Assembly: GCA_023268935.1 (NCBI GenBank)
Contig: JALRKK010000051.1
Span: forward strand, 1-33,875
DNA length: 33,875 nucleotides
Direction of reading: 5' to 3'
Source of the DNA: Glaciecola sp.
Lineage (GTDB): Bacteria; Pseudomonadota; Gammaproteobacteria; Enterobacterales; Alteromonadaceae
Part shown: piece by piece, positions 9,444 to 17,933 of the stretch
Position numbering within the stretch: the first letter of the stretch is position 1
Layout: every line of letters starts with the position of its first letter
Made by a program: the position numbers and the translations under genes
Notes under the pieces: model-generated
Seen by the model: the letters and a program-made list of their open reading frames with translations, nothing else
Told to the model about the DNA's origin: nothing
Database searches by the model: none

Positions 9444-9707
9444 ATGCAACCGACAAAAAGAAAAAAGAATCCTAACGCCAATGCTGAAAAGCAAAAGCGC
9501 TTTCGCGAAAAGCAAAAAGCCCTTGGTCGCAAAATGGTACGTGGCTATGTCAGTCCGAAAGCCCTGAAATGTTACTCAGAATTAAATGATAAAACGGGTT
9601 GGTCTGATTCTGAAATCCTGTCAAATGCGTTACGCATAACCTATGCTGCGTATAAAAAGGGTCAGATACGTGTGCTAAATCAATATCTAGAAGATAACAA
9701 CCTTTAA
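9444..9707 (+). CDS. Small basic protein of unknown function, possible ribbon-helix-helix type
   Basis: An 87-residue protein, not recognised with confidence. The N-terminal 30 residues are very basic and Gln/Lys-rich ([20 protein letters not shown]). Then comes a short strand ([12 protein letters not shown]) and two helices around [20 protein letters not shown], a pattern resembling a ribbon-helix-helix DNA-binding fold, so DNA or RNA binding is possible. A start at 9399 is in frame, but AAGGA at 9432-9436 lies seven bases before the ATG at 9444. The stop overlaps the convergent stop of the neighbouring photolyase-like gene by four bases, leaving no room for a terminator. It could have its own promoter in the region shared with fabA. 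Confidence 0.6.
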
Positions 9708-11188
9708 GGAAATGTCAGCAGACGGCGAGCCTCAGCTCTCACATCATCACGCTCACGAAACGACCATGCTCGCTCTCGTGCAACTTTGGCTGTGTCATCG
9801 ACATCAATAATTGGATTTGGATAATCAGGGGCATCGACAGACGGACTGAATAGGTCATAGTTCTGCTCAACACGCCAAGGTGTATGAAGTTGTTCTAAAG
9901 GCAGTTGTGCAAGCTCTGGACACCATTTTTTTATAAACACACCCTTATCGTCTTTTTCTTCGGATTGTTTGACTGGGTTGTATAAACGTATGGTGTGAAT
10001 ACCCGTCACCCCAGCTTGCATTTGAAATTGGGGGTAATGAATGCCCGGTTCAAAATCCAAAAACTGCTTTGCCAAATGATGCACTCCTAATCGCCAATCT
10101 AGATTCAAATGTAGGGTCAAAAAAGACACCAACATCGCGCGCATTCTAAAGTTAATATAGCCGGTGGCTATCACTGCTCGCATGTTGGCATCAATAATTG
10201 GAATGCCTGTTTTGGCTTCGCACCATGCATTTAACCTTGCTGCCACTAATTCTTCATCCGATTCATAAGGGTATTGTTCATATGCTTGATTGCGACAGTA
10301 AAATTGCATTTGCGGTTCACACTCGAATTTTTGCAAAAAATGATCATGCCAGTGCAAGCGAGAAATCATGGCATGGAGGGGGCGAGTCCAGCTTTTCGAT
10401 AAACCAGATTTTTGCTCTAATGTATATTGATACACTTGACGCAAAGACAGATTGCCCCATGCCAAGTAGGGCGAAATACGCGAACATGAAAAACGCGCAT
10501 CGTGTGGGCGAGAGATGTGTTTTTGATAGTTACGCCCACGCTCAACAAAAAAATCTTGAAACGTACGCCACGCCCAGGCTTCTCCACCACGTTGCATTAA
10601 TGGATTAGGTTGTTGCCACGCATCGGGCACATTATCTTGCAAGGGTTGGATTAACTGACTGGGAACAAACGAGATTTTTGATAAATCTGGCGTATCCAAT
10701 GATGCTTGCATGACTTCATGCCAGTGTGTTGGTGAGACTTCAATCCGCTTTGGGCCACGCTTGACTGTGCTATGCGGATATTCAATCCAATCGATGTGTT
10801 GTTCACGGCAATAGCGTTGCATGGCCTTATCACGAGTAAAAGTAATATCTAGCCCAATTTCTTGGTAAGAAAATATGCTCTGTATTAAAAAATACTGACC
10901 TAACCGATTGAAGGCATTTTGCACGTCATCGAGCATGACTAGGATTAATGTATTGTGATCATTAAGTGATTGCTGCATGTCGTGTAACGACTGGTACACA
11001 AAGCGCCAATGACGTTCATCGTAATGAGAATCAGCCATAACGCTAGGCTCAAAAACATACAATAATAAAGTAGGTACCCCTGTGGACTCTTGAGCTTTTA
11101 AGGGAGTGTGATCACATAACCTTAGATCTCGTTTGTACCAGACAACGTTTACTGAAGGCTTATGTCCAGTTGCGGATGAAGGTGCCAT
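9704..11188 (-). CDS. Divergent cryptochrome/photolyase family protein (FAD-binding)
   Basis: A 494-residue protein with an N-terminal photolyase alpha/beta domain ([18 protein letters not shown], residues 13-30) and a C-terminal FAD-binding domain ([18 protein letters not shown], about 327-344; LDWRLG at 363). An ungapped comparison of this segment with E. coli photolyase puts His384 where Asn378 contacts flavin N5, Phe388 at Trp382 and Glu312 at Trp306; only the middle tryptophan (W365 for W359) remains. It is therefore unlikely to use the classical Trp triad, and whether it repairs DNA or signals is open. An upstream in-frame ATG at 11248 adds 20 non-conserved residues; 11188 is preferred. 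It overlaps the end of the CRY-DASH gene by 29 bases, forming a two-gene unit. Confidence 0.85.
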
Positions 11189-12431
11189 GTGGATCGTAAA
11201 TATCAGTTTGCTTTTGTAAATTAAATTGGCGTAACCCGCGAGGATCACTCCCTACACCAGCTAAATACTGCCAATTTCCCCAATTGGCAGACGGGTCAAA
11301 ATCCACCAAAATGTGCTCAAAATAGGCTGCCCCATAGCGCCAATCTTGACCTAGTTCATGGATGAAACAACTTGCCACCAGCTGCCTTGCGCGATTTGAA
11401 GTGAAACCAGTAGAGCGCAACTGATTCATTGCAGCATTAATGATTGGGTAACGGGTAGTGCCATTGATCCATTGCTGCAATACCTTTTTGATGTGCTTAC
11501 CCGTAGGGAGTTTGTCTTGGATCCCCCGATGGAAAAACATTTTTTTACCGTATTTCGCCAACTGCCATTGGAAAAATTCACGCCATAATATTTCGAACAC
11601 CAACCAATACGTCGAATCATTTGCTTGATGCGATTCTTCAAAGCGTTTGACAGCCCAATATACTTGACGAGGCGATAAACAACCACAGGCCAACCACGCC
11701 GATAGCTTGCTAGAGAACTCCCAGCCATCAAGACCATTGCGCGTTTCTTTGTAAGTTAACAAAGCCTTGGTATCACTCATGTAATAGTGGATTTGCTTAA
11801 GCCCTGTAGAGGCGCCACCTTGCAAATGCTGTATGACGGATACTGGAGGAGGCTCTGAAAATTCTGGATATCCATCGCCCCAAGTACTTTGACGGATAAG
11901 GGGAGGAGGTAAAACAGCTGGCGCGGTCACTGGCTGTGATACTTCTGCGAATTTCTCTACCTTTTTGCGAAATGGCGTAAAGTGATCTGGCATTTCATTA
12001 AGCGTAAATGGTAAATCTGAGAAATGATATAAGGTATGACTGTTACCCGTGACAAATCCGCAGTTGGGTAGGGCGGTTTTCAACGCTTGCCATTGTCGTT
12101 GCTCATAAACACCTGGATAACTGTGTTTTCCAACAACATGAATAGTGTGTTCTGCAACCAACTCCTCAATGATGTTCACAGGGTTACCTACATAAACGTG
12201 CAAGGTTTGGCCTAATGCTTCGAGCTGTGCCGTTAAATCGCGCAAAGATTCAGCAATAAAACGCAGCCGATGATCGCCAATTGCGGTAAACCCGTAATGA
12301 TTGGTGTTAAGCCATTGTTCGTCCAAAACATAAATACAATGCAACGCATCCACTCGAGACACAATTTGATTAAACGCGTTGTTATCAGCTAAGCGCAAGT
12401 CATGCTGAAACCAATATAAACCTTTGGACAT
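11160..12431 (-). CDS. DASH-family cryptochrome (ssDNA-type photolyase)
   Basis: A 423-residue protein starting [13 protein letters not shown] (photolyase domain), with the CRY-DASH hallmarks [28 protein letters not shown] and [14 protein letters not shown] in the FAD domain. The flavin-N5 Asn (N383), W364 and W387 match E. coli N378, W359 and W382; the W306 position holds Gly311 in an ungapped alignment. CRY-DASH proteins bind FAD and a folate antenna and typically repair pyrimidine dimers in single-stranded DNA. The protein stops just after FIRNWT, a compact C terminus. GAGG lies seven bases before the ATG. The 56-base gap to the divergent phrB must hold both promoters. Confidence 0.92.
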
Positions 12432-12487
12432 TTGGCGACCTCAATATTTTGCATTTTTTACTGAATTTACCGAATTTTGGTTCAACT

Positions 12488-13918
12488 ATGACAGACAAAA
12501 TTACGATCCACTGGTTTAGAAACGACTTACGCATTGACGACAATCCGGCTTTGACGTCAGCGGCAAAGGCAGGAAGCATATTACCGGTTTATATTTACGA
12601 TACCTCGGCACCAGAGTCAGCACAATTAGGTGGTGCCAGCAAATGGTGGTTGCATCATTCATTACAGGCGCTCAATGCATCGCTTGATGGTAATTTATTG
12701 GTCTTGCAAGGGGAACCGCTGCAGGTATTGACGGATCTTATCAAGCAAAGCAAAGCCAATGCGATAGTCTGGAATCGAGGCTATGAGCCGTGGCAAATTC
12801 AACGTGACACATATATCAAGCAAGTACTTAAAGACCAAGGACTTGAAGTGCTCAGCTGTAATGGCCATTTGCTTTGGGAACCGATGAGTGTTGTCAAAAA
12901 AGATGGAACACCGTACAAAGTATTCACTCCATATTATCGCAAAGGCTGTTTAGCTCAACCTGAACCTCGTTTCCCGCTAGGGGTGCCGGATCTTAAGTTT
13001 GCTAAATACGATATGAAAGGGCTTGATATTGAAGACTTGCAACTTCTGCCCACCATATCTTGGGATACACAGATCAGAACCATGTGGGAACCTGGCAGCC
13101 TTGGCGCGAAAGCCAAACTCGCTCGCTATATTCAAGAAGCATCTGATAAGTATCAAGATGCGCGGAATTTGCCAGCGGTTAAAGGTACGTCACAGTTATC
13201 ACCGTATTTGCACTTTGGTGAGATTTCGGTCAATCAAGTGTGGTATGCGTTAAAAGATGCGTATGCAAACGATCCTGACAATCCACATCTTGATACGTTT
13301 TTATCCGAACTGGGCTGGCGTGAATTCAGTCATTACTTGCTGTATCACTGGCCATCCATTCCGACGGATAATTTTAACAACAAATTCGATGCCTTTCCTT
13401 GGCGAGATGATAGCGTTGCACTAAAGGCATGGCAAACAGGGCATACAGGTGTGCCTATCGTCGATGCCGGTATGCGTGAATTGTGGCAAACCGGTTATAT
13501 GCACAACCGTGTCCGTATGATTGTGGGCTCATTTTTGGTCAAGAACTTACTTCTTGACTGGCGTGAAGGCGAGCGCTGGTTTTGGGACTGCTTGCTGGAC
13601 GCAGATATGGCCGCAAATAGCGCAAGCTGGCAATGGGTTGCTGGTAGTGGTGCGGATGCGGCACCGTATTTCAGAGTATTTAATCCAGTGTTACAAGGTG
13701 AAAAATTCGATAAGCAAGGCGAATATGTGAAGCGGTATTGCCCTGAACTCAAACGTCTTCCTCCTAAATACATACATCAACCCTGGGCTGCACCGCAAGA
13801 TATTTTGCGTGCCTGTCAAATTACGTTAGGCAAGGAGTATCCCAAACCGATAGTAGACTTGAAGCAATCACGTCAACGCGCACTGGATGCGTTTCAACAA
13901 ATGAAGGCTGTGTCATAA
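12488..13918 (+). CDS. phrB: Class I CPD photolyase (deoxyribodipyrimidine photo-lyase)
   Basis: A 476-residue enzyme that splits cyclobutane pyrimidine dimers with blue light, using FADH- and an antenna pigment. The N terminus ITIHWFRNDLRIDDNPAL marks the antenna domain. In the FAD domain, TGVPIVDAGMRELWQTGYM, NRVRMIVGSFLVK and NSASWQWVAGSGADAAPYF are canonical. Electron-transfer tryptophans W305, W358 and W381 and the flavin-N5 Asn N377 correspond one for one with E. coli W306, W359, W382 and N378. An earlier ATG at 12449 adds 13 residues unlike the family; neither start has a clear Shine-Dalgarno. The stop overlaps the start of the next photolyase gene (TAATG), so the two are coupled. Confidence 0.96.
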   Translation: MTDKITIHWFRNDLRIDDNPALTSAAKAGSILPVYIYDTSAPESAQLGGASKWWLHHSLQALNASLDGNLLVLQGEPLQVLTDLIKQSKANAIVWNRGYEPWQIQRDTYIKQVLKDQGLEVLSCNGHLLWEPMSVVKKDGTPYKVFTPYYRKGCLAQPEPRFPLGVPDLKFAKYDMKGLDIEDLQLLPTISWDTQIRTMWEPGSLGAKAKLARYIQEASDKYQDARNLPAVKGTSQLSPYLHFGEISVNQVWYALKDAYANDPDNPHLDTFLSELGWREFSHYLLYHWPSIPTDNFNNKFDAFPWRDDSVALKAWQTGHTGVPIVDAGMRELWQTGYMHNRVRMIVGSFLVKNLLLDWREGERWFWDCLLDADMAANSASWQWVAGSGADAAPYFRVFNPVLQGEKFDKQGEYVKRYCPELKRLPPKYIHQPWAAPQDILRACQITLGKEYPKPIVDLKQSRQRALDAFQQMKAVS

Positions 13919-15459
13919 TGGGGGCTTTACGATTAATTCTAGGCGATCAGCTGACCCAACACATCACCGCTTTAGACGGTATCGATGAACGAAACGATGT
14001 GATACTGCTTGCTGAAGTGCGCAGTGAAGCGACGTATGTCAAACATCATAAGAAAAAAATCGCGTATCTTTTCAGTGCCATGCGGCATTTTGCACACAGT
14101 TTACGAAATCAAGGATATACGGTTCATTACACCGATTATTTGGCTGACGATAACGCCGGCTCTCTAGCAGACGAAGTAGCCTTGCGCGTTCAGCAATACC
14201 AGTGCAACGAAGTCATTTGCACATTCCCTGGTGAATATCGCGTGTTAGCAGATATGGAATCTTGGTCTGAACGTTTGTCTATGCCTGTTGATATTCGCGA
14301 CGATACTCGCTTTATTGCATCAGTTGAGGAGTTTGCTCACTGGGCAAAAGGCAAAAAACAATTGCGAATGGAGTTCTTTTACCGCGAAATGCGCAAAAAA
14401 CTCAACTCCTTAATGACGCCAGAAGGTCAACCCGAGGGAGGCAAATGGAATTACGATGCACAAAACCGCAAGGCACTGCCCAAAACACTCAGAGTTCCGC
14501 CTCCAACCCAGTTTGCGCCTGATGCGATCACTCAAGACGTATTAACGTTGGTCGATAGTGAATTTGCTGACCATTTTGGTCAGCTAGACGGATTTCACTA
14601 CGCTGTGACAAGGGATGACGCCTTACAGGTGCTTGAGGGCTTTATTCATGAACGCTTAGCACTTTTCGGGGATTATCAAGACGCCATGGCGCAAGGTGAA
14701 CCGTGGATGTTTCACTCACACATTGCCTTGTATTTGAATGCGGGTTTATTAACGGCGGATGAAATAGTTCAAGCGGTTGAAGCGGAATATCACGCAGGTA
14801 ATGCTCCACTAAATGCCGTTGAAGGGTTCATTCGCCAGGTTATCGGCTGGCGTGAATATGTGCGTGGTTTGTACTGGTTCAAAATGCCTGGCTATGAAAA
14901 AGAAAATTTTCTGAATGCCACTCGCGCGTTACCGGATTTTTATTGGACCGCCGATACCAATATGAATTGTTTAAAGCAATGCGTGCAAGAAACCTCAGAC
15001 AACGCTTATGCACATCATATTCAACGCCTAATGGTGTTAGGTAACTTTGCCTTACTGGCGGGTCTCGCTCCAGAAGAAGTGAATAATTGGTATTTACTCG
15101 TCTATGCCGATGCTTATGAGTGGGTCGAAATGCCGAATGTCTCTGGGATGGTGTTGTTTGCTGATGGGGGCGTATTAGCGTCTAAGCCATATGCAGCGAG
15201 TGGGGCATACATTAACAAAATGTCTAACTATTGCAAAAACTGTCAGTACCAAGTTAAAGAAAAAAGTGGAGAAACAGCCTGTCCGTTCAACTATTTGTAT
15301 TGGGATTTTTTAATTCGCAACCGCGAAACGCTTAAGTCAAACCACCGGATGGGCATGATTTATAATACATTAAATAAGATGGATGAGACCAAGGTAATTC
15401 AGATTCAAAAGGATGCACATAATTTTTTAAGCAAATTGGATAATCATGAAAAAGTCTAA
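13918..15459 (+). CDS. Fe-S bacterial cryptochrome/photolyase (FeS-BCP), probable (6-4) photolyase
   Basis: A 513-residue protein of the prokaryotic (6-4) photolyase group (Agrobacterium PhrB type). It begins LRLILGDQL, the group's signature N terminus. Four cysteines, C351, C439, C442 and C455, are spaced exactly as the [4Fe-4S] ligands of Agrobacterium PhrB (C350, C438, C441, C454). The His pair H366-H367 in YAHHIQR matches the catalytic histidine region, and [14 protein letters not shown] and [13 protein letters not shown] are FAD-domain motifs. Known members repair (6-4) photoproducts with FAD and a ribolumazine antenna. It is coupled to phrB upstream (one-base overlap) and to a DUF2256 gene downstream (14-base overlap). 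Confidence 0.95.
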
Positions 15460-15595
15460 TCTACCGACTAAAATGTGCCCGGTCTGCCAACGGCCTTTTA
15501 CCTGGCGTAAAAAATGGGAGCGAGATTGGGAGAACGTGAAGTACTGCTCAAAACGGTGCATGGGAGATCGGAACAAAATCGCTAAATCTTCCTAG
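15446..15595 (+). CDS. DUF2256 small zinc-finger-like protein
   Basis: A 49-residue frame starting at ATG 15446, inside the end of the FeS photolyase gene. It reads [20 protein letters not shown] and then [18 protein letters not shown], with two CxxC/CxxxC pairs (C11, C14, C34, C38) able to bind one metal ion. This matches DUF2256, a tiny family often found next to bacterial cryptochrome/photolyase genes. Its function is not known; a metal-binding helper role for the photolyase is inference from the constant neighbourhood. The overlap of 14 bases suggests coupled translation. Confidence 0.9.
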
Positions 15596-15636: not shown

Positions 15637-16134
15637 CTATTTTTGTTTCTGTTGCTTGGGTTTGTTGCTATTTGCCAGCACTATATCGCGGTCTTCTTTG
15701 GCTCTATTTAAACGTGCTTTGGCAAGTCCCACAAAAATATTGATCTGTTCCAAACTGCGGGGGATTTGGGTTACATGCCCAACGGATATGGACAAGAAAG
15801 GAGATAGGGGAGACACGTGATTACTGATTAGCGCTTCATTAAGCATGATTTTGAGGCGTTTTATTTTCTGATAGATACCATGTTCATCGCATGAGCGAAA
15901 GACCACATAAAAGTCATCTCGCCTAGCCCGAACCGCCATGTCATTTTTGCGTTGAACTATTGACTGCAGCATCACTTGCACCGTGCGTATGGCATAACAA
16001 GCATGAACTTTTCCATGGAACGATTGCATTAAAGCAAAATAATCGATATTGCAATACATCAAGGTGATGGGTTCATTGGATCGGATGCATTCAAGCCAGC
16101 TACGCGAAAACGGAATCGTCCATGGAGAGAGATT
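15637..16134 (-). pseudogene. Degenerate GGDEF domain, frameshifted 3' half of a receiver-GGDEF gene
   Basis: The frame is open from 16134 and encodes a recognisable GGDEF-like fold: SRSWLECIRSNEPITLMYCN, IDYFALMQSFHGK and VRARRDDFYVVF. The product site that should read GGDEF is RRDDF, so cyclase activity is unlikely. The first possible start (TTG 16062 or ATG 16059) lies inside the first beta strand and has no Shine-Dalgarno, so this piece is not a natural stand-alone gene. Its N terminus continues smoothly from the receiver gene upstream if one base is removed from the AAAA run (minus strand, 16133-16136). It looks like the second half of a disrupted response regulator; a sequencing indel is the alternative. 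Confidence 0.65.
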
Positions 16135-16531
16135 TTACATTGTAGCGTGGAGGCTTTTCCGCTGAAACCAAGGCATTTACGCGTTGCTCGATAAAAGCAA
16201 GACTCAAAGGCTTAATGACTACTTCACACATTGGATAGGCCGTGATCTGACGAATGTATCGTTCCACGACATCACTGTGTGACACAATAAAAACGGGAGG
16301 GATTTGATTGAATTCAAGATGCGACACGTATGCAGTCAAATCGATAAATCGTTCCCTGATCGGCATTAGATCCATCACAATCATTTGAAAAGGTTCTGCT
16401 GTTGGATTTAAGTATTTTGCTAACTCTCTTGAGCCTTTGACCAACACGACATCATACGTCTTGCTAAAACTAATACGCTTGAGTTTTGACTGTACCGGAT
16501 CATTATCAATCAGTAATAGCCGTGGTTTCAT
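16100..16531 (-). CDS. Response regulator receiver domain protein, probably truncated by a frameshift
   Basis: A 143-residue single receiver domain: acidic pocket D9/D11 in LLLIDNDP, phosphoacceptor D54 in MIVMDLMP, the switch residue S84 in FIVSHSD and K107 in VVIKPLS. After NVK (residue 133) the remaining ten residues are out of character, while the neighbouring frame continues into a GGDEF-like domain, so the original protein was probably a receiver-GGDEF regulator. No histidine kinase is adjacent. The gene is transcribed divergently from the recombinase, with a large palindrome between them. Confidence 0.8.
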   Translation of the reverse strand: MKPRLLLIDNDPVQSKLKRISFSKTYDVVLVKGSRELAKYLNPTAEPFQMIVMDLMPIRERFIDLTAYVSHLEFNQIPPVFIVSHSDVVERYIRQITAYPMCEVVIKPLSLAFIEQRVNALVSAEKPPRYNVKSLSMDDSVFA

Positions 16532-16694: not shown

Positions 16695-17933
16695 ATGCCT
16701 AAGCCTAAACCGACACCTTTATACCCGACATTTTCAGAGCTTCAAGTAATGTCACTTGATGATTATCCAATGCTGAATGATTTTGTCACAAGTGGCCCTG
16801 CATGGCGTGTGCAACACTGGCATTGGTGCAAAGATTTTTTGCTCTATATCGGACGCAATAAATCTGAGCATACTTATACGCGTTTTCGTAACGATGTTGA
16901 AAAGTTTCTATTATGGGTATTTTTGTATGAGCAACGTCCATTGGACGATTTGCGCAAAGCTGACATACTGCGATATATCGATTTTTGTGTACAACCGCCT
17001 TTAGATTGGATCAACACACAGCTCAATGACCGTTTCACCCTGCAATCAGGTTACTATCAATCCAACCTTGATTGGTCGCCGTTTCGCATGGTAATACCAA
17101 AACATGATAAAACACGTGAACCCGACTTAAGACAATATCGTCCGTCACACCAAACGTTAACATCAACATTTGTTGCGTTAAGTGCTTTATATCGGCATTT
17201 GATTGATGAAGAAATCTGCTTTGGTAATCCAGTTCCACTGGCAAAACGCGACTGCAAACATTTAATTAAAGATAGTCAGGTAAAGAATATCAGCCGGTTA
17301 ACCGAACATCAGTGGCAATATTTACTCGATACAGCAGTCGCGATGGCAGATGATGATGCACTATATGAGAGACATTTATTTATTATTGCCACCATGAAAA
17401 CCTTATTTTTACGTTTATCTGAGTTGTCAGAACGCAAGGATTGGACACCTTTGATGAGCCATTTTTGGTTAGATGACAGTAACAATTGGTGGTTTAAAGC
17501 CTACGGGAAAGGCAAAAAAATACGCGATATCACTGTGCCGCAAAGCTATTTGCCATTTCTTTCTCGTTATCGTGAATGGCGCGGACTATCACCTTTACCG
17601 TCACGTGGTGAACAAACCCTGTTAGTAGAAAAAATTCGTGGTCGTGGAGGTTTAACTGGGCGTCATATTGCACGTTTGGTCCAGGAGATTTTTGATGCTG
17701 CGTTCACTCGGATGAAGGCAGAGCAAGGACTCAATGCTGCGCAAAAATTACAAGAAGCCAGTACGCATTATTTGCGTCACACTGGTGCAAGTATGGAAAT
17801 TGAACGCAACCGTCCATTGAAAGATTTGTCAGAGGATCTGGGCCATGCCAGCAGCGCGACTACCGATACGGTTTATGTTCAAGTGGAACGAAAGAAACGT
17901 GCATCGTCCGGTAAAGATAGAAAAGTTGAGTGA
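16695..17933 (+). CDS. Tyrosine recombinase/site-specific integrase
   Basis: A 412-residue protein. The N-terminal part (about 35-180) is a SAM-like core-binding domain. The C-terminal catalytic domain has R240 in FLRLSEL, a beta-hairpin lysine in GKGKKIR (271-277), H358 and R361 in HYLRHTG, H384 in LGHASS and the nucleophile Y394 in TVYVQ, so the active site is complete. The family breaks and rejoins DNA through a 3'-phosphotyrosine intermediate. No phage or plasmid genes, excisionase, tRNA or direct repeats were noticed beside it, so it may be a solitary chromosomal recombinase or a remnant of an element. The start lacks a good Shine-Dalgarno; ATG 16695 is the first in frame. Confidence 0.88.
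   Translation: MPKPKPTPLYPTFSELQVMSLDDYPMLNDFVTSGPAWRVQHWHWCKDFLLYIGRNKSEHTYTRFRNDVEKFLLWVFLYEQRPLDDLRKADILRYIDFCVQPPLDWINTQLNDRFTLQSGYYQSNLDWSPFRMVIPKHDKTREPDLRQYRPSHQTLTSTFVALSALYRHLIDEEICFGNPVPLAKRDCKHLIKDSQVKNISRLTEHQWQYLLDTAVAMADDDALYERHLFIIATMKTLFLRLSELSERKDWTPLMSHFWLDDSNNWWFKAYGKGKKIRDITVPQSYLPFLSRYREWRGLSPLPSRGEQTLLVEKIRGRGGLTGRHIARLVQEIFDAAFTRMKAEQGLNAAQKLQEASTHYLRHTGASMEIERNRPLKDLSEDLGHASSATTDTVYVQVERKKRASSGKDRKVE

Follow-up and report, generated by a model that had tools for sequence, protein, structure and literature searches.

A divergent photolyase gene island in a Glaciecola genome that joins a photolyase-fold subfamily with a replaced active site to a DUF2256 gene

The accessible text of PMC9649867 counts only two earlier reports of photolyases in operons and describes a UV-B-inducible two-photolyase operon in Synechococcus PCC 7335, reported in two cyanobacteria. 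Another paper, which covers an experimentally tested phr of Photobacterium profundum 3TCK, likewise predicts an operon with one phr gene (available part of PMC4019646). Here we analyze a stretch of 33,875 nucleotides (the window; contig JALRKK010000051.1, our C42) from a 2.22-Mb metagenome-assembled genome (MAG) of Glaciecola sp., GCA_023268935.1, with an estimated completeness of 89%. Positions 9704-15595 of the window hold an island of four photolyase/cryptochrome genes, one of which encodes a protein that we call P1, and a 49-aa DUF2256 gene. We think it likely that the island serves photoreactivation as a module, its overlapping genes arranged in two divergent units, in which P1 would act on a different substrate or in a different context and DUF2256 would serve as an accessory. 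The available portions of open-licence papers on multi-photolyase clusters yielded no description of this cluster, and the accessible part of PMC9040609 holds nothing on it. Adjacent, overlapping photolyase genes are common to the island and the Synechococcus operon. However, the latter, as far as its accessible description goes, combines a photolyase with a PhrSph98 homologue, whereas the island type combines CRY-DASH, P1, an iron-sulphur (FeS) type enzyme and DUF2256, and occurs in two phyla.

The two units of the island lie head to head, with starts 56 bases apart. On the minus strand, a CRY-DASH gene (11160..12431, 423 aa; TIGR02765, 490.8 bits against a cut-off of 317.05) is followed by P1 (9704..11188, 494 aa). 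The plus-strand unit consists of a class III cyclobutane pyrimidine dimer (CPD) photolyase gene (12488..13918, 476 aa), an FeS-type (6-4) photolyase gene of the FeS-BCP or PhrB type (13918..15459, 513 aa) and DUF2256 (15446..15595). Pfam places DNA_photolyase (PF00875) and FAD_binding_7 (PF03441) in three of the genes, P1 included, DPRP (PF04244) in the FeS gene and DUF2256 in the fifth. The whole MAG has three PF03441 matches and one PF04244 match, every one of them inside the island. An earlier note on this DNA had described four photolyase/cryptochrome genes plus DUF2256 in one compact island, and we found five intact frames with the expected family matches. Its CRY-DASH and FeS-type labels also agreed with the family scores. 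The 56-base gap that it gave (12432..12487), presumed to hold both promoters, is correct if the plus-strand unit begins at ATG 12488; TTG 12449, upstream, is a possible start. The overlapping ends that it noted measure 29 nt (CRY-DASH/P1), 1 nt (class III/FeS) and 14 nt (FeS/DUF2256) by coordinates. The label "divergent photolyase-like" for P1 was borne out as to the fold; P1 is better described as a separate subfamily, and its likely start is ATG 11188 rather than GTG 11248, where a longer frame opens.

P1 was called at about 278 bits or more in 43 genomes of a 295-genome sample of the order (in two of them in two pieces), and weaker matches were other photolyases. One alignment (A1) took 35 of the 43 P1 genes. 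A tree of 77 proteins took 28 P1 rows, all of which fell on one side of a branch of length 1.55 with SH-aLRT 100. The tree was built by a quick method with SH-aLRT supports and no bootstrap, and the tree program warned that two long branches, those of DASH and P1, join each other. For that reason the place of P1 among the photolyase classes is unsure, whereas on these sequences the unity of the subfamily is not in doubt. No NCBIfam model reached its cut-off on P1. The CRY-DASH model TIGR02765 gave 160.4 bits against 317.05, which rules out P1 as a CRY-DASH. The FAD_binding_7 match scored 201.8 bits, and the AlphaFold model (pLDDT 92.2, pTM 0.92) matched 4u63 in Foldseek with an E value of 7.5e-24 and a TM score of 0.80. 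P1 is thus most likely a photolyase-fold flavoprotein, predicted to bind flavin adenine dinucleotide (FAD). The NewPHL/SPL photolyases are short and have an inverted domain order (accessible part of PMC13274461); P1 is ruled out as one of these by its 494 aa and N-terminal antenna domain.

In what follows, E274, N341, S238 and the other reference positions are numbered as in E. coli Phr without its initiator Met, and we take them to serve as CPD contacts, FAD core or Trp chain. All 28 P1 rows carry the substitutions E274 to R, N341 to F, N378 to H and W384 to M. W382 is never Trp in these rows, M345 is Ala in 27 of the 28, and R226 is Ile or Leu. The window protein has R277, F347, A351, H384 and M390 at the positions of E274, N341, M345, N378 and W384, which rules it out as a classical CPD photolyase. 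By comparison, E274, N341, N378 and W382 were kept throughout the CRY-DASH (18), class III (13) and class I (18) rows. P1 retains the FAD-core positions S238, R344 and D372. It therefore shares fold and FAD core with the class I and III CPD photolyases and differs from them in the replacement of R226, E274, N341, M345, N378, W382 and W384. R277, F347, H384 and M390 were invariant in 127 of 127 P1 open reading frames (ORFs; 123 distinct), none of which had Trp at the W382 position. For F347 and H384 this invariance is partly selected in 80 of the ORFs, because those were recruited with search patterns covering the two motifs; the remaining 47 were not. The earlier note had counted P1 among the enzymes that together could cover dimers in double- and single-stranded DNA and (6-4) products. 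Ordinary repair by P1 is not supported, because the catalytic residues are replaced in every row and every ORF.

A published table of subfamilies lists one substrate position as H, M, Q or V and a second as W or Y, with Q and Y for CRY-DASH (accessible part of PMC7560933). Our CRY-DASH and CPD rows suggest that these are M345 and W384; the island CRY-DASH has Gln350 and Tyr389 there. If so, the Ala/Met pair of P1 fits no row of the accessible table. As judged from the aligned residues, the active site of P1 matches none of the classes compared here.

Loss of the CPD-contacting residues with retention of S238, R344 and D372 is also what one would expect of a cryptochrome-like blue-light sensor that signals instead of repairing DNA. 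We regard a sensor as quite unlikely. The usual photoreduction chain is broken in all 127 ORFs because the W382 position has no Trp, and the C-terminal tails are short in the P1 alignment. In addition, no regulator family exceeded 2 ORFs among the 25 commonest Pfam families of flanking ORFs (90 of 92 scanned in one set, A5, and 58 of 64 in the other, A6).

When compared with a Glaciecola relative, the ratio of nonsynonymous to synonymous substitution (dN/dS) was 0.054 for P1, 0.036 for CRY-DASH and 0.050 for the class III gene, and these three genes are under purifying selection. Synonymous sites were saturated for the FeS-type and DUF2256 genes. The loss of key catalytic residues might be taken to mean that P1 is a decaying paralogue without function. 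This is extremely improbable given the low dN/dS against the nearest relative, the intact frame and the occurrence of identical replacement residues in Proteobacteria and Bacteroidota.

The other three enzymes resemble known families closely. The protein at 12488-13918 had been called a canonical class I CPD photolyase in the earlier note. It is assigned to class III instead, because its nearest solved relative is PhrA of Agrobacterium (PDB 4u63, 492 bits, as against 327-348 for plant-type cryptochromes and 276 for E. coli Phr) and because it clusters in the class III clade of the 77-protein tree, apart from the E. coli-type enzymes. It keeps the equivalents of E274, N341, M345, N378, W306, W359, W382 and W384; with the CPD-contact and Trp-triad positions kept, we found no difference from PhrA. 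The island CRY-DASH passes its family cut-off, has the Gln/Tyr pair and has a short C-terminus, as do several relatives. The FeS-type protein matched PhrB of Agrobacterium (4dja) over its full length with 621 bits. Its C351, C439, C442 and C455 align with the [4Fe-4S] ligands of PhrB and are conserved in 14 of 16 rows, and H367, which aligns with PhrB His366, is His in 16 of 16. In the features tested it did not differ from PhrB; the island copy sits in a cluster with DUF2256.

We compared the neighborhoods of the other 42 P1 genomes of the order sample, computing inter-gene spacings from the longest frames. Within 5 kb of P1 we found DUF2256 at 30 of the 42 loci, a DPRP/FeS-type gene at 26, DASH at 22 and a class III gene at 7, which makes a chance grouping of these genes an insufficient account. 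One locus (L044) was read over 1,900 of its 3,196 bases, and its DASH, seen separately, is not among the 22. The order DASH-P1-DUF2256-FeS on one strand occurred at 13 of the 42 loci and the divergent island at 6; the rest were partial. Among the matches listed, the best-matching named P1 was from a Glaciecola MAG (81% identity), with the same island, 56-base gap and overlaps. A second set comprised the best 80 of at least 591 P1-related stretches and reached Bacteroidota; four of its genomes are also in the order set. In these best 80 loci, a DPRP/FeS-type gene was present at 40, DUF2256 at 40, DASH at 28 and the divergent island at 4, and the commonest complete order was P1-DUF2256-FeS-DASH (10 loci).

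The association also held between genomes. A DPRP gene, counted by PF04244 matches, was present in 41 of the 43 P1 genomes versus 47 of the 252 other genomes of the order sample, and DUF2256 was present in 42 of the 43. DASH was found in 38 of the 43 (22 adjacent, the window, and 15 of 20 genomes checked that lacked an adjacent DASH, with scores above 370 bits); at the same cut it was found in 16 of 48 P1-negative genomes, hand-picked among those with PF03441. The earlier note had named rare co-occurrence of the four genes as evidence that would count against a dedicated photorepair operon pair. The genes co-occur in most P1 genomes. The operon-pair proposal stands as regards a recurring gene set with overlapping or close frames; the exact five-gene divergent island turned up in only 7 of the 24 sampled genomes of the same family (six plus the window). 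FabA matched 12 of 58 flanking ORFs around 12 loci with the divergent arrangement, and this recurrence suggests that the divergent island occupies one chromosomal site in this family.

At 22 of the 42 loci, DASH was the immediate upstream neighbor of P1 and shared its strand, and at 18 of these the longest frames overlapped or were within 10 nt. This proximity, along with the replacement of E274, N341, N378, W382 and W384, raises the possibility that P1 has no catalysis of its own and partners CRY-DASH or the FeS enzyme, for instance as one subunit of a heterodimer or as an adaptor that binds DNA, and that the lost residues reflect lost chemistry. We consider this somewhat unlikely, since the invariance of R277, F347, H384 and M390 is expected of a working site and since DASH was not found in 5 of the 43 P1 genomes (one of them 82% complete).

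Short FAD-domain proteins with no antenna-domain match were present next to P1 or in its vicinity at 8 of the best 80 loci (of at least 591), and DASH was not seen at these (p = 0.045, with some of the contigs short). These NewPHL/SPL-like proteins are at L113:5883-7001, L128:5874-6992, L133:5796-7025, L108:5768-6991, L124:2465-3556, L146:8783-9940, L136:18-1583 and L085:8539-9333. An apparent fusion of the FAD domain with a flavin reductase at L136:18-1583, on a 3.1-kb contig, was read as a frameshift run-on and is not claimed. The NewPHL/SPL type is a single-strand CPD photolyase according to the accessible part of PMC13274461. Because these proteins occur where DASH was not seen, P1 may go together with a single-strand photolyase, be it DASH or NewPHL/SPL-like.

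Several further observations concern P1 loci. At contig C88 of genome G204, DUF2256, DPRP, a class III-type gene and DASH form a divergent island with no P1-type match; the DASH match has one stop codon. In Pseudoalteromonas, Salinivibrio and Vibrio, P1-type genes of 46-51% identity were found on large secondary replicons whose records (H1-H13) list them as plasmids. Phage carriage was rejected, as the 10 phage records had only 24-29% identity and are not P1-type. A flavin-reductase-like gene (PF01613) was matched at 24 of 122 P1 loci (weakly at L080 and L072), for example at L034:12696-13442, and in several loci it directly adjoins P1 or the FeS-type gene. A DUF6482 gene is divergent to P1 in two Vibrionaceae loci (L082:6646-6951 and L100:3748-4053). 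DPRP (PhrB-like) proteins beside P1 lacked every one of the four iron-sulphur cysteines in 8 of 8 cases checked: L113:8595-10118, L128:8646-10133, L133:8604-10091, L108:8554-10035, L146:5285-6775, L124:5839-7344, L129:8573-10054 and L138:2253-3728.

The island DUF2256 scored 79.3 bits against PF10013 (cut-off 25 bits). Residues K9, C11, C14, W20-R21-K22-K23-W24, W28, V31, Y33-C34-S35, R37 and C38 were invariant in 31 sequences. The structural model, of moderate confidence (pLDDT 84.3, pTM 0.55), had YacG and the FCS finger among its top fold matches, and Pfam places DUF2256 in the TRASH clan with zf-FCS (accessible part of PMC4047054). Like the YacG/FCS zinc fingers, DUF2256 is a small four-Cys protein, though the fold match is weak and not significant; it differs from them in its own invariant WRKKW and W..V.YCS.RC patterns. 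DUF2256 is probably a four-cysteine, zinc-finger-type accessory with predicted metal binding. A literature search for DUF2256 together with photolyases found no paper, and in the accessible parts of papers on DUF2256 alone we found no link to photolyases.

The association of DUF2256 with DPRP is strong. In the order sample, DUF2256 was present in 71 of 88 DPRP genomes versus 13 of 207 without DPRP, and in a phylum sample it was present in 45 of 52 DPRP-positive versus 7 of 197 DPRP-negative genomes. Every one of the 84 order-sample genomes counted as having DUF2256 (in one of them the DUF2256 match is below the family cut-off) had a PF03441 gene, as against 196 of 295 overall. Three genomes that have neither DPRP nor P1 carry DUF2256 next to DASH, which speaks against a role confined to the insertion of iron-sulphur clusters. 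Apparent DUF2256-photolyase fusions in five genomes were rejected, as the long frames proved to be chance frames in GC-rich DNA.

An unrelated function for DUF2256, with co-occurrence arising because both DUF2256 and photolyases are common in light-exposed lineages, would be consistent with its placement outside the order, where it lies within 6 kb of DPRP or P1 in only 18 of 41 genomes. It would also fit the flanks of lone copies, which had no common neighbor: of the 84 ORFs scanned (out of 96), at most 3 matched any one Pfam family. We judge this rather improbable. The link to DPRP persists within genera (Mantel-Haenszel odds ratio about 121, p about 4e-12; 11 genera, 122 of the 196 PF03441-positive genomes), 65 of 84 order genomes have a DPRP or P1 gene no more than 6 kb from DUF2256, and the 14-nt overlap between DUF2256 and the FeS gene is found in relatives as well. 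The three genomes in which it adjoins DASH also speak against mere shared habitat.

A scan for sigma-70-type promoters listed no site inside 12432..12487. No shared motif was evident by eye in 11 divergent gaps compared, with no motif program run, and Rfam, searched at gathering scores, matched nothing in the window. The earlier note had seen no MerR/LitR-type regulator in the window, and we likewise found none among its Pfam-scanned ORFs (some short ORFs were not scanned). The single B12-binding_2 match in the genome sits in an 877-aa frame. On contig C84 of the same genome, an extracytoplasmic function (ECF) sigma factor gene adjoins a ChrR-family anti-sigma gene (TIGR02451, 178 versus 124.5 bits). 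Blue light induces operons with cryptochrome/photolyase genes in Vibrio cholerae, and ChrR/sigma-E and MerR take part in the response (accessible part of PMC5241685). By analogy, the sigma/ChrR pair might be linked to the photolyase island. Downstream of the island, at 15637-16531, a small receiver-like ORF precedes a GGDEF-type ORF of 141 aa with the signature RRDDF, perhaps a signalling gene that has been split or has degenerated. A tyrosine-recombinase-type gene lies at 16695-17933, about 1.1 kb past DUF2256.

From family knowledge and conserved residues, the class III enzyme would repair the CPDs of double-stranded DNA and CRY-DASH those of single-stranded DNA, while (6-4) products would fall to the FeS enzyme. 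P1 would be a relative with the FAD fold in which the classical CPD contacts and the inner Trp of the electron chain are gone and conserved Arg, Phe, His and Met stand instead. It would bind FAD with a different active site and most likely act on another substrate or in another context beside the DASH and FeS enzymes. DUF2256 would assist the non-classical photolyases, probably through DNA access or enzyme assembly. A bolder version is that P1 represents a new photoenzyme class, using Arg277/Phe347/His384/Met390 flavin chemistry on a lesion that its neighbors cannot repair, with DUF2256 as a shared accessory of non-classical bacterial photolyases. Examples of such a lesion could be the Dewar isomer, which forms from (6-4) products in sunlight, or a (6-4) product located in single-stranded DNA. 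We think this version unlikely.

Several points weigh against the photoreactivation module. Families, residues, linkage and selection were observed directly, and we infer the function of the module from them; its support is genomic, from gene content and sequence. P1 has no DASH, DUF2256, DPRP/FeS-type or class III gene near it at 10 of the 42 loci (9 when the DASH of L044 is counted) and at 32 of the best 80 of at least 591 loci, where several contigs end early. In 19 of 84 order genomes, DUF2256 has neither P1 nor a DPRP gene inside 6 kb (8 of these genomes have P1 or DPRP genes elsewhere and 11 have neither), and the same holds for 23 of 41 genomes outside the order. The DUF2256 fold search gave no significant match (best E 0.26), and the promoter scan listed 17 sites versus 15.7 in shuffles. 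The DPRP counts rest on PF04244 without a genome-by-genome check of the cysteines, and some DPRP relatives lack the iron-sulphur cysteines.

Well-known families account for three of the four enzymes, and the cluster singles out two unknowns, P1 and DUF2256. The first is a widespread photolyase-fold subfamily with at least 591 related stretches, and the second a tiny family whose presence closely follows DPRP photolyases. Should DUF2256 prove necessary, work on isolated bacterial (6-4) photolyases may have lacked a natural partner of the enzyme. Should P1 prove to repair a lesion that is its alone, bacteria would be able to reverse directly more kinds of sunlight damage than are now listed.

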